From positions 236,069 through 300,068 of the forward strand of contig WHVA01000076.1 in assembly GCA_015179125.1 (NCBI GenBank): 64,000 nt of DNA, given 5' to 3'. This DNA is from Gautieria morchelliformis. Its lineage: Eukaryota > Basidiomycota > Agaricomycetes > Gomphales > Gomphaceae. Position 1 is the first letter of the stretch, and every line of letters begins with the position of its first letter. The notes beneath the pieces were generated by a model. It worked only from the letters and a program-made list of their open reading frames with translations, ran no database searches and was not told the DNA's origin. Position numbers and translations under genes: made by a program. Of this stretch, positions 16,694-60,592 are shown piece after piece.

Positions 16694-16819
16694 TTAGATT
16701 GTTGTGTATTCTTTCCTCTTTTCAAGGTGTAACCATCTGTTGTAGTTCCATTGCATATTGTATTTGATTCCGCTTCCCAATCAAGAAATCTTTTAAGCTT
16801 CGGTGGTCAGCGAGCTATC

Positions 16820-29565: not shown

Positions 29566-29752
29566 GCAGAAAAGTCTCTCCCCTAGAGGACCGGCGGTCA
29601 TACTGCGCGTTGCATTCGCCATAGGTGCGTTCGGAATCAGAGACAGCGACTCGGAGATCGCAACCTCTTCCGCGCACACGGTATATGACAGCCCCTCTTC
29701 TTACGTCGAGCTCCCAACCCCGGAAATCCCGTCCCGTATTTCCCCTTCTGAC

Positions 29753-30927
29753 ATGGATCCGGATGATCGCCTTCGGAATATGGAGGAGGAATTGACGCGG
29801 AACCGGATGAAGACCGACGCGATTGAAACAGCCTTACAAACGATTTTGGCTAAGTTAGATATTCCACAAGGTGGTGGAAATGCAATGCTGGATGAGCTGG
29901 ATTTCGGAAAAGCGGAACTAGCGGAAGAGAGGATGTCCGCGAGTTGGCAAAGGTCAAACCTGCAACTCCGGCGGACTTTGACGGAGATCGGGAGAAGGGA
30001 TGCGCATTCTTCAACACATGCAGCATCTACTTCGCAATTGTCGGAGACCTCTTTTCGAACGATCAGGCTCGAATTCACTGGGCATTGTCCTTTTTCAAGT
30101 CGGATCGCGCAGCCCGTTTTGCAAACAAGGTGATCCGACATGAAGCAAAGGGCAAGGGGAACTACTTCTGGGACTGGGACGCCTTCGAGAAAACATTTTC
30201 CGACCAGTTCTGCCTGAAAAATGAGCAGCTCACAGCCCTTACAAAGCTCGAGGGGACCAGCTGGTACCAGGCCAAGGATCCGGTCGATGACTACATTGAC
30301 CGCTTCCAGGAGCTCATCGACCTTGCGGAGTATGACGATGACAAAACGATCGTCATCAAATTCCGACGAGGGCTTGATCCGACACTCCAGAACCAAGTTG
30401 CGCTGCTTGGGGATGGAGCTCCAGATTTCGATGACCCGGAAGGGTGGTACCAAGCTGCGCGGAGGGTGTCCCGAAACAGGGAAGCAAACGAGGCCTTTGT
30501 GGAGACAAACCGGAACATGACATGCAGTTCCGCTCGTCCTACTCCACCCGTGCCAAAACCCGGAAGTGCATTCATTCCCACTCGGAAAATATTTCCGACA
30601 GTTGTTCCGCCTGCTCCTATTAGGAACCCTAGCCCCCCTCCCTCGAAGAGTGGCCCTGCCCCGATGGATGTTGACCGCATGCGCGGAAAAGGCCACGGAA
30701 CCATCACCTGCTTCCGATGCCGACAACCAGGCCACTATGCCCACGAGTGCCCCCAAGCCTTTGACATCCGGCTTATGACCACAGAGGAGAAGCTTGAGCT
30801 CCTTCCAGAGTTCCTCGCACTCGCAGACATAAGCGGAGTGCCCACTGCGGAAGGAATTTACGAAAATGCGGAACATGGTGCATCGGAAGTGGAAGATGTG
30901 TCGGATTTTGTGACGCGCAGCGGGTGA
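29753..30927 (+). pseudogene. Element 1 gag, one-base deletion
   Basis: The frame opens at ATG 29753 (MDPDDRLRNMEEELTRNR). One base is missing near 29940, where the related sequence at 46.7 kb reads EERMATKLVKVKPAT; the downstream frame continues with AKVKPATPADFDGD to 30927. The capsid-like region is followed by a Pro-rich linker and one zinc knuckle, CFRCRQPGHYAHEC. It packages element RNA in the family; here it is broken by the frameshift. Confidence 0.88.
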
Positions 30928-32166
30928 GATGTGTGCCCCTGCTGCCTGTACATAACCGGTTTGCCTGTCTTGAAGTAGAGAATGAAAAGCCCCCACACCC
31001 CTCACTTCATACAGACCCACTGGATAAAGTCACACAAAAACCAAATCCGACACCCCATGCATCCTGCATCCGCCCTTGGGAGAGACGCCTCCCGAAGCGC
31101 TATGTTGTTGCTGCCACCCCTGGCCCCAAGTCACTAGTCATTAAGGTGGAGATCCAGACGACAGATATGGCGGAAGTCAAATCCGGACCCACCCTTGTCG
31201 ATTGCGGGGCCACTGGTCAGTTTATAGACCGGGACTATGTGGAACGGAACTGACTGACCACGCGGAAGTTGCAACGTGCAATCCCGGTGTTCAATGTGGA
31301 TGGAAGCCCCAATGAGGCAGGGTCCATCATGGAGGTAGTAGACACAATTCTCCGCTACGATGGGCACTCAGAACGCACTTCCTTTGCAGTCACCAGCCTG
31401 GGGAAGCAAGACATCATTCTCGTGTTTACCTGGCTTCAGGAGCACAACCCGGAGATCAATTGGCAGACTCGGAAGGTACTGATGAGTCGATGTCCAGCCA
31501 AGTGTCACATGTGCCGGTCGGAAGTGCGGAAGGAACGCCAGGAGCAGCGGAAGACCGAACGGCTCATACAGACATGTCGTTCTGGCCCCCATCCACTGCT
31601 TGCAGAAGAAGACTCGGAAGCGGAATTTGAACCGGGTCCCACTTCTGATTCCAATTCCGATTCCGATTCCGATTCCGATTCCGATTCCGACATCATCTGA
31701 CTCAGCCTGGAAGATACACTGGCAGAAGGGGAGTGCTTGCTGTATGTAAACCTTCCACCGGAAGCAGAACACATCCGCGCCACCGGAAATATTTCGCAAC
31801 GCCTTGCTGAAGCCTCCAAGAAGCATGATAGAGTGGCGGTGGAAATTCCGGAGTACCTGCGGGAGTTCGAGGACGTCTTTGCCAAGGAGTTGTTTGATGC
31901 CCTGCCTCCACGGAAGCTGTGGGACCATGCCATAGAGTTGGAGCCTGGGTCAAAGCCCACCAACTGCAAAGTCTACCCGCTGTCACCCAAGGAGCAGGTA
32001 GAGCTCGATGCATTCCTTGCAGAAAACCTCCGTACAGGGAGGATCCGCCCCTCCAAGTCACCCATGGCATCTCCGGTGTTCTTCATCAAGAAGAAGGACG
32101 GCTCGCTCAGACTTGTGCAGGATTACTGGGCCTTGAATGCGATCATGATCAAGAACCGGTACCCCA

Positions 32167-32567
32167 TGTTGAAAGTTCTACAGGGTGGGATTGTGTACGT
32201 GTGGGGGATTCGTAAGGTCGTAGAGAGACATGGATAGAATAGGGATGGGAATACAACTTCGGTTGTATGCGCTAACACCGCGCGCAGGGACAACAACGGA
32301 CACACCGACTGACACCAACGTCCAGTCATAAGCCTCATGGGCTAGAATAAGAACACAATGCTGGAGATTTACTGCCTGAAGTTATCTACATGAATCACTA
32401 GCTATTTAACTATGTACCGCAGCTACATTAGATTAGACATGGAGAAGGGTCATGGTGATGATCAAGTGCCACCGGCGCATGATAATGCGCCGGTGCTCAT
32501 ATCTCGGTCAGGGACCCGAAGCGCTGCTTCGGATCCTGGTCTAGAATCATCTTCACCACTAATAACA
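32167..32567 (+). mobile_element. Solo LTR nested in element 1 RT, TSD CCCCA
   Basis: This 401-bp insertion begins TGTTGAAAG, ends AATAACA and is flanked by CCCCA on both sides (32162-32166, 32568-32572). Removing it with one target copy restores [14 protein letters not shown] in RT. The TGTTG...AACA ends are usual for Ty1/copia-type LTRs. It contains two perfect hairpins (caccggcgcat/atgcgccggtg and ccgaagc/gcttcgg). Confidence 0.92.
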
Positions 32568-35230
32568 CCCCATTCCACTCATTTCCGAACTAATCACACA
32601 ACTCCGCAGGGCAAAGTACTTCACTAAGCTGGATGTCCGCTGGGGCTTCAATAATGTTCGGATCCGGGAGGGAGACGAGTGGAAGGCCGCATTCCGCACC
32701 AACCGAGGACTCTTTGAGCCACAGGTCATGTTCTTTGGCCTCACCAACAGTCCCGCCACTTTCCAGACGATGATGAATGACATTTTCCGTGACATGATAG
32801 CAGAAGGGGTTGTCTGTGTCTACCTCAATGACATCGTCATCTTCACAAAAACAATGTCGGAACATCGGGAAGTCATGTGGAGAGTGCTGGAGCGGCTCCG
32901 GGAATACAACCTGTGTCTCAAGCTGGAAAAGTGCGAATTTGAGTGGACACGGATAGAGTATCTTGGGGTGTTGTGTCGGAAGGAAAGGTGGAAATGGACC
33001 CAGTCAAAGTTTCCAGTGTATCGGATTGGCCTGTGCCGCGGAACAAGAAAGAGGTCCAGTCCTTCATTGGGTTTGTCAATTTCTACCGGCGGTTCATCAA
33101 GGACTTCTCCTGCCACGCTCGTGCCCTCTTCAACCTCACCAAGAAAGAGGTTGGATGGCAGTGGGGAGAGCCGGAACAGGCCTCCTTTGACAAACTCAAA
33201 GAGCTGATCACTTCCGCCCCGGTCCTGATCTTTCCCGATGACTCTCGCCCTTATCGAGTCGAGGCGGATTCTTCCAACACAGCTACCGGAGCGGTCTTGT
33301 CACAGCAGTCATCAGAAGATGATGGGGGATGGCATCCGATTGCTTTCTTCTCTAAAAGCCTTAGTCCGGTCGAGCAGAACTATGAGATCCACGACAAGGA
33401 GATGCTGGCAATCATCCGAGCGCTGGAGGAGTGGGGACACTTCCTCGAGGGTGCTCTATGCCCATTTGAGATCTGGACAGACCACAAGAACCTTGAGTAT
33501 TTCCGCACATCTAAGAAGTTGAACCGACGACAAGCACGGTGGTCCCTACACCTGTCCCTGTTTGACTTCATGCTCAACCACCGCCCCGGCCGCACCATGG
33601 GCAAGCCCGATGCCCTATCCCGCCGTGCGGATCATGGAAGCGGAAGTGGGGACAATGCGGATATGACACTGCTCCGCCCTAGTCTCTTTGCAATCCGCGC
33701 CCTAGAGGGAGTGACTGCAGTTGGGGTGGAAGCGGAAATGCTCTGGGACATCCGGAGGCAGTACCGGAATGGAGAGAAGGAGGAGTCGGTGGTGAAGGTG
33801 GTGGAGGAACTTCGGAAAGGGCACTCACGGTCTGTACGGGCAGCGGAATGGTTGGAACGTGATGGACTGCTCCACTTCAGAGGCAAGGTCTATGTTCCAG
33901 GTGGGGCGGACCTCCGCCGCCGCATCGTGTCCCAGCACCATGACACACGGGTCACTGGGCATGCTGGCAGGTGGAAGACACTGGAGTTAGTGGCTCAGAA
34001 TTACTGGTGGCCTCAGATGTCCCGCTACATTGGACAGTACGTGAAGACATGTGACCTTTGTCTCCGAACCAAAGCGCAACGACATCCGCCTGTCGGAGAA
34101 CTTGTTCCGCTCCCAATTCTCGAATCCCGCTGGGACACCATCAGTGTCGACTTCATCGTTGAACTCCCGGAGTCTCATGGCTAATGTGATAATGAACGTC
34201 ATGGATTCGGTAAGCAAGGTGTCCCACTTCATTCCAATGCACACGACGATCACAGCCCTCGGAGCGGCCCGCCTGTTCCTTGCACATGTCTGGAAGTTGC
34301 ATGGGCTCCTGAAGCAAGTTGTTTCCGACCGAGGTCCGCAGTTTGTCACGGAACTGACTCGGGAGCTCTACCGCCTGCTCGGCATAAAGCTGGCTACCAC
34401 CACAGCGTACCATCCGCAGGGTGACGGACAGACGGAACGGGTCAATCAGGAGTTGGAGCAATATCTCCGCCTCTTTTTCAATGAGAGGCAGGATGACTGG
34501 GATGAGTTGGCGGAATTCCAATACAACAACCATGTACATTCCGCCACGCAACAGACTCCCTTCATGCTTGACTCCGGACGACACCCGCGGATGGGCTTCG
34601 AACCACGCCAGGCTGAGTCCCGACTCGAGACGGTCAATGAGTTCCGAGACCGCATGGACTCCACCCTTTCGCAAGCCAAGTCGGCCCTTGCGAAGGCCAA
34701 GGATGACATGGCAAGGTACTACAACCAACGCCGGGTTCCTGCCCCGGAGTTCCAAGTTGGAGACAGATGCAAGTGACATCCACACCACACACCCTTCGCA
34801 GAAGCTTGCCCACCGCTACCTTGGGCCCTTCACAGTGATGCGGAGGGTTGGACGGAATGCATACCGCCTCCGACTTCTGATGTCCATGTCCCACCTCCAC
34901 CCGTCTTCAATGTGGTGAAGTTACTCCCTACGCTTGAGGACCCAATTCCAGGTTGGAAGGCTCGTCCGCCACCTCCGCCCGAAATTGTAGATGGGGAAGA
35001 GCACTATGTGGTGGAACGGATCCTGGACAGCCGGTTTGTGCGAGGACGACTCCAATTCCTCGTGAAATGGGAAGGGTATGGGTATGAGGAGAATTCGTGG
35101 GTCCCAGAGCAAGATGTTTCCGCTCCAGACAAACTCCGTGAGTTCTATAGGACGCACCCCGGTGCCCCTCGCCGAATCTGCTTGCTGGCATTTCAATCCC
35201 TCGTGTCCCGTGCTTCGAGGACGCAGCACG

Positions 35231-35243
35231 CTAGAGGGGGGGT
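35231..35243 (+). other. Element 1 polypurine tract
   Basis: The run tagagggggggtga lies immediately before the right LTR, where plus-strand DNA synthesis is primed in LTR retrotransposons. Confidence 0.7.
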
Positions 35244-35245
35244 GA

Positions 35246-35739
35246 TGTCAGGGGACACCCTGTTTTCCATTTCCAGTTCCGACACCACACCCAGTTCCGA
35301 CTCAATTTCCGACTCCGCTTCCAGTTCCGATTCCATCTCCACCTCCGCTTTTGGAAATGATTCCACTTCTGGGAGAACTTCCACCAGTTCTGTTCGCCTT
35401 GCCAGTTCCACTCCAATTTCCAACTTCCACTCCCGGAACAGTGTCGGAAATCAAGCGACTCGCATAATAGGTGGCATCAAGGGTCGATCAAGGGTCAGGG
35501 AGGTCAGGGGGATGCAGGGTTGATGGCGGGTGCCAAGTGTTGTCCCTGGCTGCGCAGCGTAGTATAATACGGGCTCGCTGACATTGGGGGTCCTTAGACT
35601 TTTCTCTTTGGATTTCCCCTTGTCAGGTGAGAATCCCCTCTCTTGTATACTCTGTTCATTTATACATACTTTGGATTTCCCCTTGTCAGTCAGTTGTGTG
35701 GTAGTGTGATCTCCACAACCAGCCAGGGTTGCCCTTACA
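35246..35739 (+). repeat. Element 1 right LTR
   Basis: This is the same length and ends as the left LTR. The chromodomain frame runs on into its first part, so part of the LTR may code for the pol C-terminus in intact relatives. Confidence 0.93.
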
Positions 35740-36374
35740 ATTTCCTTCACTCTTTTGATGGTCACTTTCTTAGTTAGACACACACTATTTGATATGTTTG
35801 ATCTCAGCCACTTTGCCAAATACTTACACTTGTAATTCTTGGTTTTCCTCAGCATTTCCATCTTGCTTCTACTTCTGTTCTCTGTCTCTTTCCATTCCAT
35901 TTCTGTTCCTGAAAAACATCCAAGAAAAAATTCCCTAAAATTCCCGAAACACCAAAAAATTTAGTTAGTTACAATTTACTGTAGAGTTTCATCGTGATCC
36001 ACTTCCCCGTTTCCTCATCCTTGTATGAATCCTTGTCTCCATTCACCAAATCTTTTTCTTTTTCTTTTTCTTTCTCTTTTCCTTCCCCTTTGTCCTGAGT
36101 CCTCATTTCCATACCTGAGCCAGGTCCCAATCCCAGATCCAAACCCCTGCCAATCACCCCTGAATCTGATCCCCACCTCCTGGCTTGCTCTGCCGCAATT
36201 GCCGATGCCATCAAATCCCAAACCATCTTCACATACTGCTGGTTGTTTATGCTCGCATAAGCCAAAAGCTCTCGGCTTACCTCCAGCAGTTGCCAGAGGT
36301 ACTCGTTCTGCTGGCATAAGAGCAGCCTGAATGGAGGTGCAGCCAGCTTTTTGCCCATTCCCAAAGGCCAGCCT
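35740..36374 (-). pseudogene. Middle part of interrupted minus-strand gene, with intact intron
   Basis: On the minus strand an open frame from the element 2 boundary reads KKLAAPPFRLLLCQQNEYLW, then NNQQYVKMVWDLMASAIAAE, then a Gly-rich part and a charged GKEKEKEKEKD run. It reaches a textbook intron (35909-35979): donor gtaaat, branch-like ctaactaac, acceptor ttttttcag after a pyrimidine run. The next exon (35740-35908) is basic (MEWKETENRSRSKMEMLRK) and continues across element 1. The left end is cut by element 2 at 36374. I do not recognise the family. Confidence 0.6.
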
Positions 36375-36587
36375 TGTAAATAACCCATGTATCTACATGT
36401 ACATTAGTTATTACATAATCCCAGTGGGCCCCTTAAGGACCCACTGTATAGTTTATGCGTGGGAACTGGCTAGCGGTCCCCATTGCATCTTACCCTTACA
36501 CTGTCACTACGTAGCATCAGAATACCACACATTGGTCAAGTTCTGTTGTGCTCTTGTGACCTAAGGCTTAAGATAGACATCTTTACA
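36375..36587 (+). repeat. Element 2 left LTR
   Basis: This 213-bp LTR has TG/CA ends and contains a 7-bp hairpin (cagtggg...cccactg). It differs from the right LTR at two positions (t/c in cccattgc and in ctgttgtg). Confidence 0.93.
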
Positions 36588-36728
36588 ACTTTTTGAACTA
36601 TCCTGCGGTTGATCACCACGCGACCAACCGATAGTGGATTCGAAGCAATCTTGAAAAAGATCGCTGCGTCGACGACTAAACATCGTTGAGACCCTCCAGT
36701 AGACCTTCTACTGTCGGCTGCGAGTGTG

Positions 36729-39700
36729 ATGATGATTCCACGCAGTCGAAGACGGACACGAGCAACGAGCTCGAGGTCCACGCCCCAGGCGCAGCCCAGC
36801 GACACGACGGCTGATGCTGTCCTGGACCAAGAGAACAGGACGATAGAAGACGGAGAGATTGTAGATCTCACCGCCCTCGTCCCCTCAGTAGAGGATGAGG
36901 AAAACCCCGACCATGTCTCGTCGAGCGTGGCCGAGGAAGAGGCGACGCCGGGCAACGAGCCAGCACCGCCCCCCCATCTCTCTCTACCCAAGGACAAAGG
37001 AAAGGGCAGAGAAGTCTCGCCATCATCGGATGGTAGAGCAACAACGTCGAGGCGGGCACAAAGCCACGACTCAAACCGACACTCACGAAGTAGAGCGACA
37101 ACGATCGTCCCTGAAGGAGGATGACGGCAAAAAAGACGAGCCCCAGACGATGGTCAGGACTCGGAATACTCGAGCTCTAGTCGCAAGAGCCGAGGGCTCA
37201 CGCCATCGACCACGAGACGGCAGAGGCCCTGAACAAACAGGTGCAGGCTGCACTGCACCGAAGTACGCTGACGCGCCACAAGCATGATCAGCTGGCATCG
37301 CAGCTTGACAACGCCGCCGCCGCCCTAATGGCAATCGGCAAAGAACTCCACCAGGCGGAGGAGGTCAGGCTGCAAGACGCTGCCACGGTGGAGGACGTCC
37401 AGAAAGCACTCCGCCCACGCGGGGAACGCGACGCAACTCGTCCGAGCTCGCGACAGTCCGCAGCCAACGAACGCAGTCGCGACGTGGAAGACCCACGCCG
37501 AAAGGAGCGAGACAAGCAGCGAATGCCGCTGCCAGCTGTCCCGGTCGAACAGGACGTAAGGTTGGGAACGAACCTCATGAACAACCGGCTGCCCCAACGG
37601 ACAGCCGTAAAACGATCCAACAGATGTTAGGGATCAGGTTGCTTCAGAGCCTGACTCTGAAACGACGACCGAGAGCCTAGAGCTCGAAGTCGCACACTGG
37701 CAGCATAAAGAAGCCACAGCCGCGTGCCGCCACACACGGGCACTCGAGCTACTAGCGAAAAACGCTGAAGAGACAGTGGCCCACAGCCACACCGCTCAGC
37801 TGCCTGACGAGCAGCTCACGCAAGCTGTACAGACGCACGGCAGGCGCGCGCAGCCTACAACAGCAGGCTATGGATCTGCAAGGTGGGACTGACCGGGGAC
37901 ACCATGCACAAAACGCCCCCGGAACCGAGAGCACAGAATGCTCCTGATCCTGAGCCCGATCTGGGCCCGGGGCCCGTCAGGGCATATAACAGCCTGCCCT
38001 GCGTGGCATCACAACTACGCGAGCGATCCATGGCCCCAACGGAAGGCCAGGGAATCCCTGACCAGGCCGACGTCGTACCAATGGAGCCGTACGACGGGAT
38101 CACATGGATGATCCGCATGGCGTTAGCAGACGCCGCGGACACAGACCCGGAGAAGTCTGTGCTAGCGAAAGCCGGCGTGAAATTGGCTCACCCTGAGCCA
38201 TATGCCGGGGGATCTGACCTCGAAGAGTTTGAAATCTTCATGGCAGCCATCCTACGATGGCTGAAAATGAATTGCCTCCTAGGGCCAACCAGCATCGACA
38301 TGCAGGTCGGCTATGTGGGCACTCGCCTCACTGGCGAAGCCCAGGAGTGGTTCCTTCGAAACATTGAACGCTTCGATCACCAGGTCCGCAGCTGGACGCT
38401 GGAAACTGTGATGCAAGGCTTTCAAAAAAGGTTCCTGCACACACTGACGTACCATCACGCATCGAATAAATTCACGTGGTCATGCAATGCATGAAAACCG
38501 TTCAGGAGATGCTGAACGAGCTCACGAAATACGCGGCACGTATGATACAGCCGCCAGACGAGTACACGTTCCGGAGACGGTTCGTATCAGCGCTGTGCAA
38601 CGAGGTCCTCAAAAAGGGCTATAATGCCGAGAGCAGCTCAATAGAGCAACTCTTCGAGACGGCCCGGATGATCGAGGAGGCATCCCGATACAACATGGGG
38701 ATGCGCCACGCAGAAAGCGCAGCAGCAACGGCAAGCGCTGCCCGGCTCACAGGGAGCAAGCCGTTGACACAAACAGGCCTGACCAGGCCCAGCCTGTTCG
38801 CAAGAAGCGGAACAGGACAACGGCTACCACCCTCACGCCCAGCACAAGCTGGACGCCCGCCTGAAGCTAAACAGCCTCAAGCGTCAGGGTCGTCCCCACG
38901 ACCTGCCCCACCGACGAAAACGTCGGGCCGGCCTAACGATAGGCCCAGTGGCAGCCAAAGCAGCACCACATGCTTTGAATGCAGCCAACCTGGCCACAAG
39001 AAGGCAGAGTGCCCCCGGCTTAGGTCCGGTATAAGGACAGCGGCCGTGAGGCACGACGATGAAGCCGAGGATCCAGAAACGGATCTTGGTCAAAATTCTC
39101 TTCAACAGATTGATGAAGAGGGGGAGGGTGATCCCCAACCCAACGACACTCCGGATAACGGAGACACGCCCGCTGAAGAGTGGGACCCTGAGCCGTCCCA
39201 ATACTATGAATGGGACGAGGAGGTGGAAGACACCACCTACAGGTCCAGCGCGATCAGATTCGCGCTGGAGGATGAAACTGCCACAAAGGTCATGGCGGCA
39301 CGCACATCGGTCACACCAGACAAGGCGGCCGAGCCGGTGTATCACCACCGAAGCAAACACAGGACACGGCCAACGCGTCCACGCAGTGAGAACCGTACCC
39401 TATCGGGGTACTGTGAAATAAACGGCATAAAAGCCCATTGCCTGCTAGATAGCGGCAGCGAAGGGGTACTGCTGTCCCCCGAATTCACGCGAGCTACAGG
39501 GATGAAGACATTCTCCCTGGAGCAACCAATCGCGCTGCAGCTAGCCTGCATAGGCAGCCGTTCCACGATCAACTATGGAACGAACACGACCATTAAGTTT
39601 GGTTGTGGGACATACGACGAATATTTCGACGTAGCAAACGTCGAATATTACGACGCGATCTTAGGGACACCATTCCTAAGGAGATTCGGCATAACCCTGG

Positions 39701-39849
39701 ACTTCTCGAGCCCAGGAATGATTCGCAAGGGAAACGAAGTGATCCCCACGGGCAAGGTCTCATTCGACAATGACGAATCAAAGAACAAGGACAAAGGGAC
39801 ACGGGTGAGCATGATCACCCAGGCGCCGAAGCCAAACCTGGCTCATTGA
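36729..39849 (+). pseudogene. Element 2 gag-protease, multiply frameshifted
   Basis: The reading frame opens near ATG 36729 and moves between frames near 37110-37240, 37630, 37880 and 38470. Parts recognisable by character are an acidic Ser/Pro-rich N-terminus, a coiled-coil-like stretch (37241-37630), a capsid-like region (38130-38460, GVKLAHPEPYAGG, TGEAQEWFL), a zinc knuckle CFECSQPGHKKAEC at about 38970 and a retroviral-type aspartic protease with LLDSGSEGVLLS at about 39447 and ILGTPFLRRFG. The last frame is long and intact (38476-39849). Confidence 0.88.
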
Positions 39850-39855
39850 ATCCAG

Positions 39856-39931
39856 GAGGACGAGTCGTGGGACGACTCGTCCTCAAACTCACCCTACAGC
39901 CGTAGGGAGAGACGCTCTCACCTAACGGTGA
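39856..39931 (+). promoter_or_regulatory. Three successive hairpins between gag-protease stop and pol start
   Basis: Stem 1 has 13-bp perfect arms (39856-39868, 39872-39884) and loop ggg. Stem 2 has 6-bp arms (39892-39897, 39902-39907). Stem 3 has 5-bp arms (39918-39922, 39927-39931). They fill the linker between the protease ORF stop (39847-39849) and the pol frame (first ATG 39937), a place where structured RNA could affect re-initiation or readthrough. That role is inferred. Confidence 0.6.
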
Positions 39932-39936
39932 AAGTG

Positions 39937-42900
39937 ATGGGAAAGAGGAAAGCGGGCCCGCGCGCCGCGGGACCTAATGGACGCCAACAGCGCCTAATGG
40001 CTTCTAAGCCAACCACCACCATCATCCTCATGGATGATGACCTTCCTCGCCTCCACGAGGAATGGATGGAACGAATCACTGACCTAGTCAGTGGGATTCC
40101 ATTAGAACTCCCGCCACTACGGGAGATCAACCATGAGATCAACCTCATTGATCCCAACAAGCACATGCGGTATCGACTACCGAAATGCCCCGAACACTTC
40201 CGAGAGGAACTGTCGGCTAAGATAGAACGATACACCACTGCAAAGTGGTGGATTCCGGCAGTAGCGCAGCAGGCAGTGCCCATGCTGTGTGTGCCGAAGA
40301 AGAATGGTACATTGAGAACCGTCTTCGATCTGCGCCAGCAGAACGAGAACACGGTGAAGGACGTCACGCCCTTCCCGGATCAAGACATCATATGCAGCGA
40401 CATGGCTCGCTGCCGATATCGAACTAAACTCGATATGTCAGAAGCATACGAGCAGATCCGGATCCATCCGGATCACGTAGCAAAGACAGCCTTTGCCACG
40501 ATCCTTGGCACCTTCAGGAGCCAGGTGATACAGATGGGGGACTGTAACACCCCATCAACATTCCAATGGCTGATGACAGCCATTTTCCGCGACTGCATAG
40601 GTCGCTTCGTCCATGTATACATGGATGACATCTTCATATTCTCGCTCTCAATACAAGAGCATGAAGAGCACCTCTACATCGTCTTTGACAGACTGAGGAA
40701 GAATCACCTCTTTCTGAGCAAGAAAAAGGTGGACCTTTACTCCATCCGAATGGAGTGTCTTGGCCATATGATCGATGACCGAGGGGTACATGCCGACGAG
40801 GACAAGATGCAACGCATCCGCGAGTGGTGCAGGCCACGGACGTTCAACGACGTCCAGCGTTTCCTCCGGAATAACCATCCATTCGAATGGACACCACTGC
40901 TCGACAAATGCTGGCAAAGCATTAAGGCGTTGGCCTGTAAGGCCCCGATCCTGCGTCCAGTAGATGCAAGGTGCCCAGAACCGATCTGGGTGATCACCGA
41001 CGGATCAAAAGCCGGCGTCGGTGTGGTCTACGGCCAAGGTCCTGACTGGAAAACTTGTCGACCAGCCGGCTTCTTATCAAAGAAGTTCAGCGTTGCTCAG
41101 CAACACTACTGGACTCACGAGCACGAGACAATCGCGGTGCTCGAGGCTCTCATGAAATGGGAGGACAAACTGCTGGGGCGAAGGTTCACCCTCGTCACAG
41201 ATCACAAAGGGCTCGAGTACTTCGAGACCCAGAAGAGCCTATCTGACTGCCAGGTCAGATGGTGGGAGTTTCTCTCCCGGTTCAATTTCAACACCGTTCA
41301 TGTAGACGGTGTAGAGAACAAGGTAGCGGACTGCCTGTCGCGCTACTACGGGAGTGACACGAGTGATGACAATCACCCGGACCACATCTTCGTGAACGCG
41401 GATGTGCATTTAGACCCGGACGGTGAGTTATTGCCCACCGACCGGTATGTCGAGTTGCGAACAGTGGCGACAAGACGCTCTAAACGCCTCGCTGAGAAGA
41501 CAGAGGCGAGAGTAACGGAAGCCGCCGCATTAAACGAGGGCTCACCAGAGCCCGCAAACGTCGCCGCGTCCCACAACGACGACGATGATGTCAGAGCCAT
41601 CGCCGCAGGAAATGACGGTGCACCCCTGCGCTGGGTCGTCGAGCAAGGCGTAGACCTGTCTAAGGTCCTACGAGACGCGTACCACAGGGACACCATGTTC
41701 ACAAAGATCATGGCGCACCCGGACGCGCACCTGAGATTCAGGATCCGGGACGGGCTGATCTGGACTAAGAATCAGCTCAAAAGAGACATCATAGCCATCC
41801 CCCGCTCTGTTCTTCAAGGGGGAAGGAAGCTGATCGAAATTATCATCGATCGGGCACATCAGATAGTCGGCCACTACGGCCATCTGAAGACTTCAAACTA
41901 CGTTCGAAGAGCATATTGGTGGCCGGGCATGAGCCCAGACATAGAAGCATTCTGCACATCGTGCGCGAGGTGTCAGATGATGAAAACCGGGCCACAACGG
42001 CCCAAAGGCCTACTACACAGCCTACCCATTCCAGATAGGCCGTGACAGTCGATTGGCATCGACTTCATGGGGCCCCTGCCCAAATGCAACGACTGTGACT
42101 ACCTGATGGTAGTCATCGACTGACTAACGTCGCTCGTACACCTCGTACCAACCACGACGAGCTTGTCAGCCAAGGGAGTAGTAGCCTGGCTGTTTCTGAA
42201 GGAGGTCATTCGACTCCACGGAGTTCCCGACTCCATCATCTCGGACAGAGACTCGAAGTTCACGTTGATCTTCTGGCGTGAACTACAGCGACTCATGGGG
42301 ACTAAGCTCCTCATGTCAACCGCCTTCCATCCCCAAACGGATGGAGCAACTGAGCGGGCAAACCGCTCGATCGGCCAGATATTGCGCGCGGTCATCAGAG
42401 ACGATCAGAAGGATTGGGCATTGAAATGCCCAATGGTTGAGGTCGCCCTCAACAGCAACATCAGCGCGACCACAGGGTTCGCACCGTTCGAGCTGAACCA
42501 CAGCTGTTGGGTGCATTTATGCTCCTGCACCAAAATCAAGCATAATATATTCGATTTATTGTATGGTGTTTCAATCCTTTCTCACATTGTTCTTGTACCA
42601 TGCATCTATTTCTCTGATTATTTTCGAAATTTTCCAGTCACTCCTTATCTCTCCATTTCACTTTGTTATCTCTATTTTCACAGGCGGCTGCACCCAGCGG
42701 AGTTTGAAATGACTTCGACGCGCGAGCCCATGGGCGCTAAAGGGCCGGGTGCACGTATATGCCTTCTGAGACAGGATAGTGCTCCTCTCTCAGTGACAAT
42801 AAATTCACTGAGAGAGGCGAGTAGTATCTTTCATATTTACATAGCATGTTGACTGAAAATAATGTAGTGTATTTGATTCTAGGTATTGTATTAATATATC

Positions 42901-43636
42901 AGTGACAATAAATTCACTGAGAGAGTGTATTTGATTCTAGCTTTCTAATAACTCTACCGAACCTTCCCTGCCATAGCCCCTAGTTGCTTACAACAGCTAT
43001 ATGCCACGGATAGACCTCCCCATAGCCGTGGACACCCCGTTCAAGGGGGTAGCCCGGTTCACACATCAGGCAAAATGGAACCTGATGGCGGCACATGATG
43101 CAATCATAGAGTATCGAGTGACACAAACGTTTCGCGCAAATAAGAAACGTATGGCGAGCGACAGGTACGCAGCTAACGACCGCGTCTACCTTTCGACACA
43201 AAACCTAACTCTCCCGAAAGGAAGAGCCAGAAAACTAGTCCCGCGGTACATCGGACCGTACCGCGTCGTCGAGGCTCGCAACGACGCATCGACAGTGACC
43301 CTCGATCTTCCCGACGAACTGAAAAGCCGTCGCATTTCACCGGTCTTCCATTCCAGCCTCGTACGGCGATACGAGGCTAACAACGACGAATTATTCCCTC
43401 ATCGTGAGGTCAAGTCATTTTATGACTTTGGAGCGAATGACGACGAGGAGTGGCTCGTCGACGAGATTATCGCACATCGATGGATAAACTCAACGGACCT
43501 GGAGTTCCAGGTCCGTTGGACCCTAGGTGACGTGACATGGGAACCCATGTCGTCCTGCAAGGACCTTGAAGCCCTAGATAGCTATCTAGAGCTTCGGGGG
43601 GTGGACAAACCACGCGACCTCCCCAGACGCCACTAG
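39937..43636 (+). pseudogene. Element 2 pol: RT, RNase H, integrase, chromodomain, broken
   Basis: RT runs from about 40140 and has an intact active site YMDD (40618-40629). About 25 residues are missing between the RT connection and RNase H (QRFL joined to RNNHPFEW near 40872). RNase H shows ITDGSKAGVGVVYG and TDHKGLEYF. The integrase zinc finger (HQIVGHYGHLK ... CTSCARC) is followed by TGA at 42043-42045 and TGA at 42121-42123, where the family would read Trp and Arg. The core continues with SDRDSKF and GATERANRS, is split by a nested LTR, then reads YMPRIDLPIAV to a GPY/F-type RYIGPYRVVEARN. A chromodomain-like end (EEWLVDEIIAHRW ... SYLELRGV) closes the protein at 43634-43636. Confidence 0.9.
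42505..42992 (+). mobile_element. Nested solo LTR in element 2 integrase, TSD ACAGC
   Basis: This 488-bp insertion begins TGTTGGGTGC, ends CTTACA and is flanked by ACAGC (42500-42504, 42993-42997). Removal restores FELNHSYMPRIDLP in integrase. Inside, a segment of about 104 bp holding cagtgacaataaattcactg and gtgtatttgattctag occurs twice (about 42798 and 42902). Its ends differ from the 401-bp solo LTR in element 1, so it is another family. Confidence 0.88.
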
Positions 43637-43750
43637 ACGCGTCTGTCACGTGCAGACCATGTGACGCGCCGGCCACGGCGTGGTTAAATTTTCGCCTCGG
43701 ATCTTTCTGAGGGCGCAACGCTTCTTGGAAGCAACCACCATCATCTACCC

Positions 43751-45739
43751 ATGAAGATGATGCCCCCCAAGGATGGGATGGACGTTGATCCGTCAACGTC
43801 CACAACGCGAACAACGGCCCCAAGACAGGGGGCCGCAGACATTCTCCGTGCTCCAATAGACCAGGAGCACTGGATGATCGTGGGATGGGAGGACGCCCTC
43901 GCCATTGTCCACCCGGACGATTGCGCAACATGCGCGGACTATGCCGCGCACCTTAGGGCCACGACCGGCACCCGCAAGGTCAAATTGCGGGACAAAGACA
44001 TCGGCGACGCCGTCGATGCAGCTTGGGGATGGCTCCCAAGGGGCATCGCGCGTGACGCACAAGAAGAGCCCCTCCAGGACGTCCACGACCTAAAAAAAGA
44101 GGTCAAGGAGCTGGAACGCACGGTCGAGGACCGCAACGACACGCTCGCAACCGAGCGCGCCAGGATCAAGGAACTGGAGCAACAGCTGAGCGCAGCCCAG
44201 CTCCAGGTTACCCTGGTTCACGCTGCCTCAAAAAGGCCGCGACATGACCCGGCCACGGACCCAGTGGCCGGGCCATCATCACCTCGCGCGACGGCGCCGT
44301 TGCCGGCGCGCGCAACATCGGGGCTAGCGTCCCGATTGTCGGCACCGACCCTGACAACGACAACGACGGAAGGGCAGAGTGCGCCTTCCGACTCTGCGTA
44401 CGGCGTCCCCGATGGATGGGAGTCCGACTCATCCGTCTGGAAGACGTACGACCCCGAACGGGCACAGAGGCTGGCGGAGCAGCCAAAGAAAAAGCGCAAG
44501 AAATTGCGCAGCAATGCCAATACCGTCAATGGGCTAGCCATTGCGAAGGAAAGCGCGATCAGCGCTTACCTAGCGGCATCATCGTTGCACACCATCAACG
44601 ACCCTGCCCTGCAACGGCGGATAGCACAGGTCGAGGCCCAGTACATTGGGCCTGGCGTGGCCCTTCCTCCACCGGCGGGGACAGTTCACCCTCCCTACCC
44701 GGGGGAGGGGACGCTCATCCCACTTGGAGATCCACTGATCTCCGAGATGGGCCTCCTACCATGGCCGGTAGGAAAGGCCCAACAGCGTCGTACTCAATGG
44801 TATGACGTCTGCCCGCTCGATGACCCACGCTTTGTCGAACTCATAGCGCGGGCAAAAGAAACGCCGCAGCTTGCGCGTACGCGCGAGATGATCGGCGTAT
44901 TCAAACGCATCGAGCACGGACAACGCGCTCGCAATCCCAAAAGGGATTGTCTCGTGATAGCGGGTGGTACCCCGCACGACATCGTGGCCATCCTGAAGGG
45001 TTGGATATACAACCCTGAAGGAATCCCATCCGCCATCCGTGACAACGCGGATGGCACCTTCAACCTAGATGACATGGACGTCTGGATGTGGTTGAAGGTC
45101 CTTGCGCCCCGGGTCAAAGGGGTCGCATCACCTCTCAGGGCGAGGCTACTCGACCTCTTCGGCTCGACAGACCAATGGTCGAGCCTCGTCGACACCAGGG
45201 AAGTGCTGACACCTCAGAGCACCACCCTGCGGCTCTCAATCATGGGTCCATTCCCTGTGGAGTGCCGAGCCGGCCCCGACATCCCACTCGCGGAGATCGC
45301 GAGATGGTTGGCCCGCTACGCGGGAGTCACTCGCGAGCGAGTGGCGCGCATTGAACATTATGTTCAATGCAGCATCACCGGCGCGGCGTTCAGTGCCGCC
45401 GCCCGCGAGGGCCAACAAAAGGTCATCGAGACCAGCCACGTGAGGGCCGCGGTGCCATGACCCCTCACTCATGCCCAGCTCGACTGAGAGCTGGCGCGCT
45501 TCCGGCCCCCTCCTCAGGCTGAGGACCCGGCCGTTGAGGCCATGCTCCGCGAGGACACGGGCCCCAGCACCCAAGCGGATACCGCCGCTAGTGGTGAGGC
45601 CGACCAGCCTCACCCAATCACCACCGACGACGCGGAGGTGCCCCCGGAGGAGTCACGTGCTCCACCGGCCCCGTACGACGACGACGTCATCGTATCGGCC
45701 ACTCTAGAGGACTCCCTCATGGATGACCTCTATGAGTAG
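43751..45739 (+). CDS. Element 2 third ORF, unknown protein
   Basis: I do not recognise this protein. From ATG 43751 the frame is open for 569 residues to TGA 45458-45460. The same frame, with one more TGA at 45488-45490, continues to TAG 45737-45739, ending in an acidic tail (DSLMDDLYE). Both TGAs could come from CGA. Visible parts: an N-terminal domain with HWMIVGWEDALAIVHPDDC, a heptad-type coiled coil at about residues 110-155, a Ser/Thr/Pro-rich linker, a basic nuclear-localisation-like KKKRKK at about 245 and a C-terminal globular half (DNADGTFNLDDMDVWMWLK). It sits between pol and the polypurine tract, where standard gypsy elements have nothing or an env gene, but no signal peptide or membrane segment is present. 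It is better preserved than gag and pol. Confidence 0.75.
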
Positions 45740-45763
45740 TAGTTAACCCCTATAGTTGTCTAT

Positions 45764-45775
45764 AGAGGGGGAGGG
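45764..45775 (+). other. Element 2 polypurine tract
   Basis: The purine run agagggggaggg lies directly before the right LTR at 45776. Confidence 0.75.
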
Positions 45776-45988
45776 TGTAAATAACCCATGTATCTACATG
45801 TACATTAGTTATTACATAATCCCAGTGGGCCCCTTAAGGACCCACTGTATAGTTTATGCGTGGGAACTGGCTAGCGGTCCCCATCGCATCTTACCCTTAC
45901 ACTGTCACTACGTAGCATCAGAATACCACACATTGGTCAAGTTCTGTCGTGCTCTTGTGACCTAAGGCTTAAGATAGACATCTTTACA
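45776..45988 (+). repeat. Element 2 right LTR
   Basis: This 213-bp LTR is identical in length and ends to the left LTR and is followed by the AGCCT target copy. Confidence 0.93.
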
Positions 45989-46812
45989 AGCCTCCACTGG
46001 CCCCAGACCTGGCTGACCCCCTTGACTACCTGTCTGCACCTCAACCAACACCTGCCCGCCTGATGGCTTTACGCCACCTGGGTTTGCCTTTTTCACCCTC
46101 ACCTCCTCAGCCTCATCCTAATCCCTGTAAGGCAGAATAACCTTTTCATCTTTCCATTTCTGCTTCCTGTTGAGGAACGAGCACCGGAAAGTCCAAACCT
46201 TGTGTTGGTTGCAGGTTTGGCATGCTGTCCTGGGCCTGAGTATGCATCTGATCCCCTGCTGACTGCAATTGTTGCATGGAAAAGGCTATTGCCCAAGTTA
46301 GTAATGCTGAATACAAAACATAACACTGATGGCTTAGCACGACAACCCTGTCGTCTTCTGTCAAGCCTGGCTTGTTGGTCTTTTCTACATCCCAAGAATC
46401 CTGGGTAACATTCTGCAAACCTTGGGACTGCAGCTTGCTTTTTCTGGGCATCCCTCCACTTGGCCAATTCTGGGTGGAGGCCCTGAGCCTTTGCTGTGGT
46501 GTCTATGTCCATCTGGTCATGGCCTGTCACCAAGTTCACATTGTTGAGTTTGGTGGTCTGCTTGTCCTCAGGCCTTTTCTTGGCCTCAGCTTGCTGTATC
46601 ATCTCTGCCTTGGCCTTCTGTTTATCAGCCTTGGCCTTGTGGGCCTGGTTGTTTGAAAAAAGGTCCCTGATGATTGTGAAGTAGATGCAGCATGTGTTGA
46701 AGAACATGCACCTGTTCTCCAAATCTCTGTCAAAGTCTGCTAGGGTTGCAGGCTTGACCTTCACCAGCTTTGTGGCCATCCTCTCTTCCACTCCTCTACT
46801 ACTATCTTCCAC
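45989..46812 (-). pseudogene. First part of interrupted minus-strand gene, gag-derived N-terminus
   Basis: The minus-strand frame from 46812 begins MEDSSRGVEERMATKLVKVK and PATLADFDRDLENRCMFFN, clearly related to the element 1 gag N-terminus. After RDLFSNNQAHK it leaves that homology for a Lys/Ala-rich helix (KAKADKQKAKAEMIQQAEAK) and a different domain (GHDQMDIDTTAKAQGLHPEL). It is cut at 45989 by element 2; the sequence on the far side of element 2 (36374 and below) belongs to the same minus-strand locus. It may be a host gene that captured gag sequence or a deleted element; function unknown. Confidence 0.55.
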
Positions 46813-46830: not shown

Positions 46831-47304
46831 TGTCAGGGGACACCCTGTGTTCCAGCTCCAACACCACCCTAAGTTCTGCTTCCATTTCTGACTCCACTTC
46901 CAGCTCTGCTTCCATCTCCGAATCTGCTTTCAGAAATGGTTCCGCTTCTGGGGGAACTCCCACTAGTTCTGTCCACTTCACCAATTCTGCTCCACTCTCA
47001 ACTTCTGCCTTTGGAACAGTGTTGAGAATCAAGCGGCTTGTGTAGTATGTGACATCAAGGGTCAGTCAAGGGTCAGGGGTCAGGGCACTGCAGGGTTGAT
47101 GGTGAGTGCCGAGTGTTGTCCCTGGCTGCGGACTAGCGTAGTATAATATGGGCTCGCTGATATTGGGGGTCCTTAGACTTTTCTCTTCAGATTTCCCCTT
47201 GTCAGGCGAGAATCCCCTCTCTTGTGTATTCTGTTCATTTATATGTATACTTCAGATTTCCCCTTGTCAGCTGTGTGGTAGTGTGATCTCCACAGCTAGC
47301 TAGG
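46831..47304 (+). repeat. Diverged LTR of the element 1 family, 3' end cut
   Basis: This begins TGTCAGGGGACACCCTG and follows the element 1 LTR throughout, including gtcggaaatcaagc-, ttgggggtccttagac- and gtggtagtgtgatctccaca-like segments, with many substitutions. Its end (agctagctagg) stops about 12 bases short of the expected gcccttaca because another LTR in inverse orientation begins at 47305. Confidence 0.85.
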
Positions 47305-48184
47305 TGTAAGGGCGACTCTACCTGGTGCTCTACTCCCTAGAGCAGCTACCTGAGGTAGAGGAGATCTGTTACGATACGATCCGTCGTAAGGTTGACTGAG
47401 GTCGGGAGCGAAACCCGAGGTAAGGTCCGAGGTTACGGGGCGAGGTTTGGATGGGGAAGTCGGAGAGGGACTTGGCTTCAGCTTATGTGCTGCGCCGACC
47501 CTACGCACGAGTCCCAACTTCGGAGGCAAACGAATAAGAGGCGAGGTTTGGCTTAAGAGGCGAGACTTAGAAACTAGCTAGGGATCGAAGGGATACAATA
47601 GTTGATTTTCAGACTGAGGAGTAGGAATGCATACAAGGGGGGTTATATACGAGCGAGGGTACGAGTCAGGGGCAAACATATTAGGGGAGGTCAGGGCGAG
47701 GTCAGGAGGCCGAGGTCAGGGCGAGGTAATATACGAATGATGCGTGATGGAGCGGAATCAGTAACTAAGGGGATACGGGCATGGGATCAAGGTCGGATAT
47801 GAGCTCAAGCTCGGGCTCGGGCTCGGGCGCAGATAAGGATCGTATGTACTCGGGCACGAATATCACAAGGCTCGGGCTCGGAAGAAGGTTTTACCGGTAA
47901 GTAACCAGCCAAAGGCCGGGTCCTTACAAGATCCAAAGCAGTATATAATGAGTCAACAGTGAGCAGGTAAATACAGACAGCGCACCTGAGGTAGAGGAGA
48001 TCCAAAGAGAACAGAGTGAGGATCTCCTTACCTCAGTGATGAACTATATAGCTGCTACACAATGACATAAGCGAGCCAACACAACTGGCAGTGACACAGG
48101 AAGGAGTAGGGGAGGATACAATGAAGGAGATGTGAGGAAGGGAAATAAAAGGAAATAAAAGGAAGGACATGTGGTCCCCTGACA
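47305..48184 (-). repeat. 880-bp LTR in minus orientation
   Basis: Read on the minus strand it begins TGTCAGGGGACCACATG at 48184 and ends GTCGCCCTTACA at 47305, the same terminal sequences as the element 1 LTR, although the middle is different and longer. A minus-strand polypurine tract (tctagagggggggtga, 48185-48200) abuts its start, so this is the 3' LTR of a minus-oriented element whose body would lie to the right. It contains short gggctc repeats near 47815. Confidence 0.8.
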
Positions 48185-48200
48185 TCACCCCCCCTCTAGA

Positions 48201-51200
48201 ATGCGACGTCCCGATGCATAAGGTTCCAGGGACAAGTTGGCACTTGGCAATCAAAAACAGGTGGGAGCTGGAGGAGGTACAAGGGGCATGAACGGCAAGC
48301 AGAGTGGCAGGGCAGTGTGTGGCCACAATAGGCACGTGGCAGGGTGCCTTGGAGGTGGCACATGTGGGCCAGGTGCATGAAGGGTGCTGAAGGGTGCAGT
48401 GGGCGGTGTGGTGGCGGTGTGCAGCAGACACAGCAAGGCAGGAGGCGTGCGGAGTGCGCGTGGATGATCACAGGTGGCATGTCCATGGAGCAGGGTGATG
48501 GGCGCGGTGGTTGTGCTTGGCTGTGCTATGGGGCTGTGTAGCTCCCATTGCCTAGTGAGGTCCGCAGCATGTGGGCACATGAGCTGCATGAGCGAGGGGT
48601 GGCTGCATCTGCAACTGTGGAGAGGCTGTGACTGTCGTAGGGAATGCACCGGAATGTCGTGATGGTGGGGCATGCGCATGGGGTGTTGCATGGGACAGGA
48701 CATGAACAGGTGCGGGGAACCATGGGGTGAGCACGAGCGTGGAACCGGGCACAGTGTATGCCATCGTCACCTTCACCCCTTCTCCAGGGTGTGTGGTCGG
48801 GGGCCTGTGCCATGTGCAGTGGTGCTACAACGTCAGCTGGAAGTCCCAGAACCACACCACATCAGTCTCGGCGGCGATGCAGTGCGGTGTGTGCATGGGA
48901 CCACCAGTCCAATACCGTCCTGATCCTACCAGCTCAGGCATACAAGGATTGCAACCCCTGGCTTGCGTCGCTCCTCCCACCTACACGCTGATGGGTATTG
49001 CACCAGCCTCCCCACAGGCAGTGGAACATGGGGGTGTCTTCGTGCCCATCTTGGAGTGCTCATACCTGCATCCATGAGTATGTGCGTGAGAGCATGGAAA
49101 CATACATGAGAGCTGCACGGAGCTTGCACGAGGTGTGCGTGGGCGTGCCGAGCACCATCGGTAATGGATGCTGCTGTTTCGGGTTGGGACGTCCCCATTG
49201 GTACCGCAGAGTGGGCGAGGGTGTGTGGAGTAAGCGAGACTCAGCGACACTTTCCCATGCTATGCGTGCCACCCTTCAACGCGCACAGGCATGGTCCATG
49301 CACCCAGCTCCCATGACCAGTGATGCGTTCGTGACCTGGTGCACCACGTCCCCGAGCTGCAGCAAGCTGCACCCGTGTTGAGCAGCCGCAAGTCACTGGG
49401 ACATCGCGGTAAGCATGGTGCTACAACCCCGTTGCTTGCACGTGTCACCCGCTGCTGCATTCCCAGGGCCGGAAAGGGGGCGCATGGGCACACTCGCAGG
49501 AGATCTGCTGCACGTCCCACATACGCCAGACACGTCAAACACATGCACGTGGCCACACATGCACCTGGATATGTTCCGAGTGAAGTACCAGGTGGCCGCG
49601 CCGCGTCCTTGAAGAAGCACGAGTGAGGGCACATGTACCGGCATGGAAGCATGGGAACATGCGCTGAACACGTCAGATGCGTTTGGGAGGGGGAGTGGTA
49701 GCTTTCACCCCCTCTTTATGGTGTGTCATCTCTGATGCATGTTTAAGTTGCCACAGCCTCGACGCACAGGCTCCCTGACTTGTGCTACCCTGCGCCTGCA
49801 TACGGAGCCAGCATCTGCCACCATATGGCCCTCTGCAGCTTGTACCTGGCCCCTGGCTGCATGGGCTGGGGGTGTCGCACACAGCATGGTGGCATGGAAG
49901 ATGCCCATGGGGGTGCAAGGGCACACGCTGGTGACTCCCATTTGATGGTGGTGTGGGGTTAATGCAGCGCGGGGGTGCCATGAGAGGTGGCCTGAGCGGC
50001 ATGATGTACGCACGTTGCGTGCGCGGGATATCCCTCCATGCTTTCCGGAGCTGTGCCAGAGCTCGCGGTAGGTACTCATGATACTGTCTGCACCTTCAGC
50101 CTTTCGAGGTGCCGTGGGAGGGCGGTATGCTGGGGTCCGAGGGCGCGTGTGGGGAGGGCTAGGTGCAGAGGGACCCTGCGCCCATCCCCAGGCCAGTTGC
50201 ACGGTGTGGGCACGACTCCAGCACTCCGTGGATCGGGCTCAGTGGATCCCCGGGTGGGGCGACACTTGGGTCAGGCGTGCTGTGGCCTGGAGCAACACGG
50301 ACACATGAGTTCGATGCGTGGTAGCTTGGGACTTGGCGGACATGGTGGATGCCTGGGGGTGGCCTGTGTGACACCACAGGGTCCAGGGGGTCTGCGGCCA
50401 TGGTGCCGCCACTCCCTGATGGGCAGAACGTTGGGGTGGGGCAAGGTGACACATAGCAGGGGTGCCCATGGAACCCTGCGGTTCTGCATGGGTGTCATCA
50501 GCAACAGAGGGCGCTGGCAGCAGATCAGAGTCAACACATGCAACAGCCTTTGTAGTGCGCACCCGGCTTTACCAACAATGGGTGTGCGGCGTGCAATGTC
50601 ACACATGGCGTCGCATTGTACTGCTTCCATGCATACTCGTACATGGACGAGGGGTGGAAGCAGCTGGGCCCGTCAGCAGCATGTACGTGGGACAGCGTGG
50701 GGCGATGAGTGCTGCGCTGTGCCCTGTGTCACACGCAGCAGGGCTGCACGTGTGCTGGTGTCCAGCCTACGGCGCCCTCTTGTAGAGCGTGTGAGTGATG
50801 GGAGGCGGTGTGGGACATGCACTGCGTCGACATCCATCTGCTGTGCCTCGCAACGTTGACACCACAACCGTACATACAGACGAGCAGCCATAGCGCGGCA
50901 CCATCCTCTCCTGTCCAGGCCCGATCCCTGGGCAGAGACCTCGGCGGTTGCCTTGCGCTACCCTCACCTGACTCCTCCTCATTACTACTACTACTTCGCT
51001 CCACCAGACCCCCATGTCCCCCATGATCTGCCAAGTCCCTCGCCCCCTGCATCCGTTTCAAATAATTCCGCCTCCTCCTTATCCTCATGAACTCCACATC
51101 CGCCCTGTTCATCCTGTCATTCGCAGCCCTAAAATCCCCTAGCAACTCGCACACCCTCTCCCCAACCTCGCCAACCTTCTGTCATGCATGAGTGGGCGCG

Positions 51201-60559: not shown

Positions 60560-60592
60560 GTATTATCTGATTCCCACCCGATAACTATCACT

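Follow-up and report, generated by a model that had tools for sequence, protein, structure and literature searches.

Hairpin saturation of coding sequence in a Ty3/gypsy-type retrotransposon clade of the fungus Gautieria morchelliformis

In some RNA viruses the coding sequence is, over its entire length, more stably folded than its shuffled counterparts, a property termed genome-scale ordered RNA structure (GORS), and chloroplast DNA carries small in-place inversions of the loops between perfect short inverted repeats. In Escherichia coli, imperfect inverted repeats (quasipalindromes) are mutational hotspots via template switching, as reported in PMC7202029, and loop inversion is named as a template-switching footprint in a study by Monttinen and Loytynoja (2022; PMC8794818). 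Here we describe element 2, a Ty3/gypsy-type long terminal repeat (LTR) retrotransposon at 36375–45988 of a 64,000-nt stretch of the Gautieria morchelliformis genome (contig WHVA01000076.1, positions 236,069–300,068; the whole stretch is hereafter the window), whose coding sequence is saturated with short perfect hairpins. All features of the element given below lie on the plus strand.

Stems were counted by default as perfect arms of ≥ 7 bp with a loop of 0–10 nt. By this count 36700–45740 holds 70 stems, against 5.1 (standard deviation (sd) 2.3, maximum 11) in 60 dinucleotide shuffles, with 24 against 1.4 at arms ≥ 8 bp and 7 against 0.1 at arms ≥ 10 bp, and the full element (36340–46020) has 71 against 5.3. 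This bears out the original prediction, which had described the sequence as packed with hairpins: all 19 arm pairs and both palindromes that it listed are perfect, and where it reported at least eight stems in ∼620 bp of pol we counted ten (40020–40640). It had also held that elements 1 and 3 and the host genes of the window show no such packing, and counts there are indeed near or below those of shuffles, at 6 against 4.6 in element 1 (29072–35700), 1 against 3.0 in the element 3 area (47000–51000), and 0 against 3.1 and 6 against 10.9 in the host stretches 1–4600 and 8000–27000, so that element 2 exceeds both its own shuffles and its two neighbours. When its LTRs and a 493-nt insert are left aside, element 2 has 69 stems in 8,695 nt, compared to 39 in the remaining 54,386 nt of the window. 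Stems are concentrated in coding sequence, with none in the LTRs and three in the leader.

A codon null, built from 100 shuffles that exchange codons between positions of the same amino acid and so preserve protein and codon usage, gave 6.5 stems in sum over the five open reading frame (ORF) segments of element 2, against 57 observed. By segment, we found 5 against 0.3 and 9 against 1.2 in the gag and protease frames (37808–39846, comprising 37808–38491 and 38470–39846), 15 against 1.8 in the reverse transcriptase (RT)–RNase H–integrase frame (39850–42042), 9 against 1.0 in the integrase C-terminal frame (42977–43633), and 19 against 2.2 in the third ORF (43688–45457). Two element 1 ORFs and two host ORFs were at background under the same null, and the codon-permuting shuffles rule out a codon or composition artefact. 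Folding z-scores, taken on 120-nt segments every 240 nt with 30 shuffles per segment, averaged −2.17 on the sense strand of element 2 (37 segments, 54% of them below −2), 0.01 in element 1 (28 segments) and −0.00 over 46.1–51.9 kb (24 segments). Thus, on the dinucleotide and codon nulls and the folding z, the stem excess of element 2 is about tenfold and is not explained by composition, protein or codon choice.

We further examined copies of the element across the searched genome (122 Mb, 1113 contigs). The best matches of searches that scored 40 places each formed set A (30 loci over 38500–42200) and set B (30 loci over 41500–45200); the window copy is in each, and some loci across the sets are one insertion. 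All 60 loci (one of them only 2.4 kb long), and thus 58 of 58 other family loci, are stem-rich, with 19–35 and 24–46 stems per ∼3.7 kb. In window coordinates, 90 stem centres recur with ≥ 7 bp in at least three copies (86 distinct, four in both sets). Stems are therefore kept between copies, and whether they are kept beyond coding constraint rests on the codon null and the covariation test given below.

The excess extends to relatives. A conserved RT motif has 558 matches in the genome, and all 12 places tested, hand-picked for variant motifs among the matches listed, are relatives at 72–94% DNA identity; they carry 2–11 stems per 2 kb against 0.8–1.8 in shuffles, clearly raised in 10 of the 12 but not in L072 (2 vs 1.0) and L076 (3 vs 1.8). 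A sister family, S2 (L081–L086, of which L081 is the same place as L075), at ∼72–77% identity, is stem-rich in six of six copies, with 14–26 stems per 3.75 kb compared to 2.0–2.8 in shuffles. A tree of the RT piece resolves three lineages, namely E, which includes element 2, S2 and S3. One further locus chosen for the third ORF of S2 (L087) does not match the element, and viral contigs yielded no relative of the RT piece. Hairpin saturation of the coding sequence is inherited and clade-wide.

A host-wide mutational process or an assembly artefact is a very improbable source of these stems, even though small inversions at hairpins are known elsewhere, as in chloroplasts. Elements 1 and 3, the host stretches and eight other Ty3 element loci (L001–L008, five of which are 96–98% alike) are at or near background; the latter have 2–5 stems against 1.6–2.6, the highest being L001 with 5 against 1.6, and this restriction of the excess to the family argues against a host-wide process. 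Identical stems are common to copies on dozens of contigs, which rules out an artefact of a single assembled copy.

Hairpins of the clade mostly have arms of 5–8 bp and loops of 3–10 nt. Reverse-complement 7-mers in element 2 are enriched 8-fold at arm gaps of 0–2 nt, 17-fold at 3–6, 14-fold at 7–10 and 4-fold at 11–15, and are at background past a 26-nt gap; in three S2 copies the enrichment is 24-fold at 3–6 nt, 2.1-fold at 26–40 nt and 1.0 beyond. For direct, reversed and complemented 7-mers the highest enrichment is 2.4-fold in element 2 and 3.5-fold in S2, and the lack of a comparable excess in these control types rules out low complexity or a general excess of repeats. The weaker excess at gaps below 3 nt suggests a real folding back of a strand. 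Family-majority arms in element 2 (loops 3–10 nt) number 71 at 5 bp (expected 27.9), 31 at 6 bp (6.7), 41 at 7 bp (1.5) and 15 at 8 bp (0.2), a bump at exactly 7 bp that is absent from S2 (16, 11 and 9 at 6, 7 and 8 bp). No loop motif was seen by eye. As a minor oddity, 53 of the 70 element 2 stems in 36700–45740 have even loop lengths; single-base shuffles are also biased in this direction (691 of 1205 loops, 57%, at arms ≥ 6 bp).

To compare families, stems present in at least half of the copies were taken over 38500–42200 from 19 of 30 element 2 loci (> 95% alignable) and six S2 copies. Nine centres are shared among 30 element 2 and 21 S2 stems, where 0.63 are expected (sd 0.82, maximum 5, 2000 circular shifts), and stem columns differ between the families at a rate of 0.145 compared to 0.236 for the rest. 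With one exception, shared stems changed on both arms together, as in CTTCGAAC/GTTCGAAG against CTTCAAAT/ATTTGAAG, a pattern that arises partly by construction since both families were required to be perfect there. Covariation was assessed in a 20-row alignment of the RT piece, with the element 2 stems as structure and 500 shuffles that ignore relatedness. The share of pairing cells (86.8% vs 86.0 ± 0.2% shuffled; 0/500), the number of cells changed on both sides (31 vs 20.7 ± 3.8; 2/500) and the covariation score (0.108 vs 0.098 ± 0.003; 0/500) all exceed the shuffles, and slid structures score 0.021–0.062. Pairs with two-sided change (15 vs 12.5; 88/500) and further pair types (55 vs 53.2; 116/500) are not above them.

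The shared centres, the covariation score and the lower rate of difference in stem columns speak for selection for a hairpin-rich nucleic acid, either genomic RNA or single-stranded complementary DNA (cDNA), in which ordinary mutation would supply stems and selection would keep them. Such hairpins could be of use, for example, in compacting the nucleic acid or binding Gag, in shielding it from nucleases or small RNAs, or in steering reverse transcription; the original prediction had put forward avoidance of host RNA silencing as one possible cause. The folding z on both strands (−2.17 sense, −1.88 antisense), the 7-bp bump and the placement of stems in coding sequence, not in LTR or leader, point the same way. 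The lack of pairing enrichment past ∼25–40 nt points away from it, as do the inversion of some loops and the base-pair changes described below, and we regard selection as a serious possibility short of a probable one.

Individual hairpins illustrate how the stems evolve. The hairpin CATCATCC/GGATGATG (40020–40039) is kept in E, S2 and S3 with covariation, and at CACTGAC/GTCAGTG (40077–40093) the S3 arms differ (e.g. CGCCGAC/GTTGGCG in L070), the protein differing on both sides in S3 copies. Stems centred at 40463 and 40745 are lineage-specific, occurring in E only. A 13-bp hairpin with a 2-nt loop (43491–43518) retains ≥ 7 bp in 29 of 30 copies. Variation within stems among copies is mainly C-to-T and G-to-A. 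Fifteen within-family double changes to another Watson–Crick pair were discounted because such decay dominates the copies, all of them being G–C to A–T or C–G to T–A.

Some loops are inverted in place. We scanned for stretches of 8–30 nt that fit another copy better as the reverse complement and counted clusters of their centres, finding 6 in the RT piece, 0 in set A, 5 in set B and 3 in S2 (the RT-piece and S2 clusters share events), against 0, 0, 0 and 1 for plain reversal and none throughout for plain complement. Two set-B clusters, at 44307 and 44879, were discounted as inversions since they resemble decayed CpG-rich or palindromic sequence. In a smaller scan, four element 2 and six S2 copies gave 6 reverse-complement cases (three at one place), 3 reversals and no complement, compared to 0, 2 and 0 in the other Ty3 loci. 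A strict count at hairpin sites whose loops differ at three or more positions yielded 28 cases, including four exact reverse complements (three distinct events), no exact reversal, no exact complement and one complement with a single mismatch.

One of these is GACTACC-TGAT-GGTAGTC (42097–42114), where at 42105 L047 alone reads ATCA for TGAT, a change lacking in the other 27 set-B copies listed at the site and in all 21 of set A. Exact inversions also occur in the hairpin at 44317–44336 (L064 at 44326, against L045) and in TTCCTCG/CGAGGAA at 40043–40062 (L083 at 40052, against L086), the latter loop being nearly exactly inverted in L073 as well (7 mismatches direct, 1 as reverse complement). 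Other cases are less clean: the 40029 loop of hairpin 40020–40039 has 6 direct and 3 inverted mismatches in L082, 8 and 4 in L074, and 5 and 2 in L086, and L062 at 41570 shows 6 against 1 over 19 nt but 7 against 9, and hence no inversion, in a wider 24-nt frame.

RNA helices under selection for sense-strand folding should tolerate G–U far better than A–C. Among one-sided stem differences between element 2 and S2 we counted 15 G–U and 26 A–C; fixed single interruptions of helices are G–U in 3 cases (4.7 expected) and A–C in 12 (7.8 expected); five groups of the RT piece give 22 and 29, from data that overlap the element 2–S2 count. Within-family G–U:A–C changes stand at 65:69 in singletons, 54:59 in 2–4 copies and 13:13 in five or more, or 141:132 in sum for A–C:G–U. 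Changes within stems thus show no preference for G–U over A–C in any of the four counts, and A–C is also ahead at the inner flank of stems (109:31 and 142:71). An A–C mismatch on the sense strand is G–T on the minus strand, and the A–C lean is weak. The absence of a G–U preference in changes tells against selection, and together with pairing that is only local it is unlike the usual outcome of selection for RNA folding. Of the structured RNA genome proposed in the original prediction, the folding z, the helix conservation, the covariation and a composition-based G–U lean remain in agreement; the base-pair changes do not, nor does the absence of excess pairing at arm gaps above ∼25 nt (element 2) or 40 nt (S2).

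We tentatively favour, over selection, hairpin-templated strand switching during element replication as the main generator of the stems, while placing it somewhat below an even chance. A growing strand, in the element's own replication, would repeatedly switch locally to the hairpin's partner strand or arm; the switch would let one arm overwrite the other, creating Watson–Crick stems, restoring them to perfection and leaving paired changes, and would now and then flip the loop where it stands. Among the products, purifying selection on the proteins would act as a filter. The excess, its inheritance, its family limits, its locality, the covariation and the few loop inversions are observed, and from them we infer that the stems would be generated by switching, and that it would take place during reverse transcription instead of in the host chromosome. 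The original prediction had also named a template-switch process, and the exact in-place loop inversions lend it partial support; the overwriting of one arm by the other does not emerge as a significant signal (p = 0.45).

That result belongs to a set of observations that weigh against switching. Arm asymmetry across 21 lineage-specific stems is close to random (28 vs 26.6), and replacement of an arm by the reverse complement of the other is seen in single examples (40463, 40745) with no overall signal. Multi-base clusters are not in excess in lineage-specific stems (15 of 206 vs a background of 166 of 1959 five-base windows). When we asked which clusters are explained by a nearby copy of ≥ 6 nt, the locations as reverse complement, reversal, complement and direct numbered 5, 9, 4 and 6 in set A, 13, 10, 9 and 14 in set B, 2, 0, 1 and 1 in E, and 1, 0, 0 and 3 in S3, so that reverse complements are hardly above controls; S2 alone leans towards them (6, 0, 3 and 2). 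The loop inversions, few in number, could result from hairpins instead of giving rise to them. The LTRs and leader are hairpin-poor though copied by the same enzyme, and switching does not predict the bump at 7 bp. The sense strand folds at a lower z than the antisense strand, although strand polarity by energy is not decisive. Finally, G–U leads where helices extend (arm ≥ 8 bp; 5.1-fold over shuffles, against 2.8-fold for A–C and 3.9-fold for C–T), and the outer flank of stems leans to G–U (G–U:A–C of 162:153 and 204:222, where composition gives ∼1:1.6), both of which also count in favour of selection.

The evidence listed for either simple model could also be accommodated if both act, with switching as the source of perfect stems and flips, part of which weak selection on minus-strand cDNA or RNA would retain. 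A–C exceeds G–U in all four change counts (26:15, 12:3, 29:22 and 141:132), though not decisively; the lean is weak and partly compositional (7.8 vs 4.7 expected), and the flank and helix-extension counts lean the opposite way. We consider the combination improbable. A stronger form of switching, which we advance as a speculation and rate as rather unlikely, is that the reverse transcription machinery of this clade is intrinsically prone to local hairpin-templated switching and its coding sequence drifts to hairpin saturation as a mutational attractor. The element would then rewrite its own proteins, as with Thr/Ser against Ala/Gly on the two arms of one stem.

Element 2 is bounded by a target-site duplication, AGCCT, at 36370–36374 and 45989–45993. 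Its LTRs (36375–36587 and 45776–45988; TGTAAA...TTTACA), each without a stem of ≥ 7 bp and loop ≤ 10 nt, align over 214 nt with 2 mismatches and no gaps; their length was set at 213 nt, the last aligned base being taken as the first base of the AGCCT duplication. The TG...CA ends with a short target duplication are those of Ty3/gypsy elements. Each LTR holds a CAGTGGG...CCCACTG pair (36422–36446 and 45823–45847) around an 11-nt loop containing CCTTAAGG, barely beyond the loop limit of our counts. The hairpin-poor leader before gag, with its three stems, spans 36588–37807. RVT_1, RT_RNaseH, RT_RNaseH_2, Integrase_H2C2 and SH3_Tf2-1 score above their Pfam cut-offs, whereas Ty3_capsid, gag-asp_proteas and Asp_protease_2 all score below; the order protease, RT, RNase H, integrase is that of Ty3/gypsy elements of the chromovirus-like kind, with the protease models below cut-off. 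The integrase C-terminal part (42993–43633) carries the SH3_Tf2-1 domain and a chromo-like domain whose Chromo match is below cut-off (19.7 vs 25.1 bits). The third ORF matched no family in Pfam or NCBIfam; of its seven database relatives five, including the best two, are G. morchelliformis proteins, and metagenome relatives also occur. Rfam gave no match at gathering scores within 36300–46100.

The window copy is defective: after 40866 it lacks 61 nt that at least 10 of the 29 other copies possess. At least 26 of the 29 other set-B loci have no counterpart to a 493-nt, partly AT-rich stretch at 42500–42992, which is foreign to the element 2 family. This stretch has two stems of its own, one a 13-bp hairpin at 42784–42817. 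A second near-copy of the CAGTGACAATAAATTCACTG segment also lies in it. The alignable body of element 2 is ∼4–8% diverged from the other fetched copies though its LTRs differ at 2 positions, and much of the body divergence may therefore predate this insertion.

An in-frame UGA lies between protease and RT (39847–39849), present in 30 of 30 set-A and five of six S2 copies. Six nt past it stands a hairpin (39856–39884) of 13 bp here and mostly 12 bp elsewhere, which keeps ≥ 7 bp in 26 of 30 copies and shows paired changes in S2 copies. The conserved UGA followed at short distance by a hairpin with paired changes has the look of a readthrough signal, and on sequence grounds 39847–39884 may be a candidate for one, with the hairpin as stimulator.

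Elsewhere in the window, 55428–58550 is an array of a 129-nt repeat (with two 57-nt steps) overlapping long minus-strand ORFs, with 5 stems against 2.3 in shuffles. The region 58600–64000 is mildly high in stems (7 vs 2.9; its shuffles also peak at 7). The C-terminal part of a host ORF at 11960–14026 resembles SNF2-type helicases, with matches far below curated cut-offs.

If the hairpins are mutational in origin, the clade would offer a natural setting in which an entire coding genome is shaped by template switching, and its many copies of graded divergence would allow rates to be measured; it would also bear on how RNA stems and their paired changes can originate when no wobble intermediate is passed through. 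If they are kept by selection, the element would be one whose genome is extreme in short-hairpin structure, and the question would arise of what the hairpins do in packaging, silencing or reverse transcription. On either account, covariation within a coding sequence need not imply that the RNA has a function. Ty3-type elements, template switching, loop inversions and structured genomes are each known singly; their combination in a retrotransposon clade whose coding sequence is saturated with perfect hairpins was not found in the open-licence PubMed Central literature, the scope of our search, with subscription journals outside it.

Element 2 shares with GORS a low folding energy along the coding region, but is a retroelement with short perfect hairpins, no long-range excess and mixed G–U evidence. 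It shares in-place inversion with the small inversions of chloroplasts, whose sites are scattered, whereas here many sites lie in a coding retroelement. The quasipalindromes of E. coli (PMC7202029) share the role of inverted repeats as template-switching hotspots but differ in being bacterial and in not making up a whole coding genome. Yeast Ty3 RNA (PMC11381356) comes from a related kind of element and has structured stretches in or near the RT-coding region, but its well-folded core is ∼19–20%, and hairpin saturation is unmentioned in the passages of that paper used here, yeast Ty3 stems lying outside our counts. The template-switch RNA hairpins described in PMC8794818 show the same perfect stems, paired changes, loop inversions and local action as element 2; they concern RNA genes and are blamed on DNA replication, whereas here the coding body of a retrotransposon carries an approximately tenfold excess of stems.

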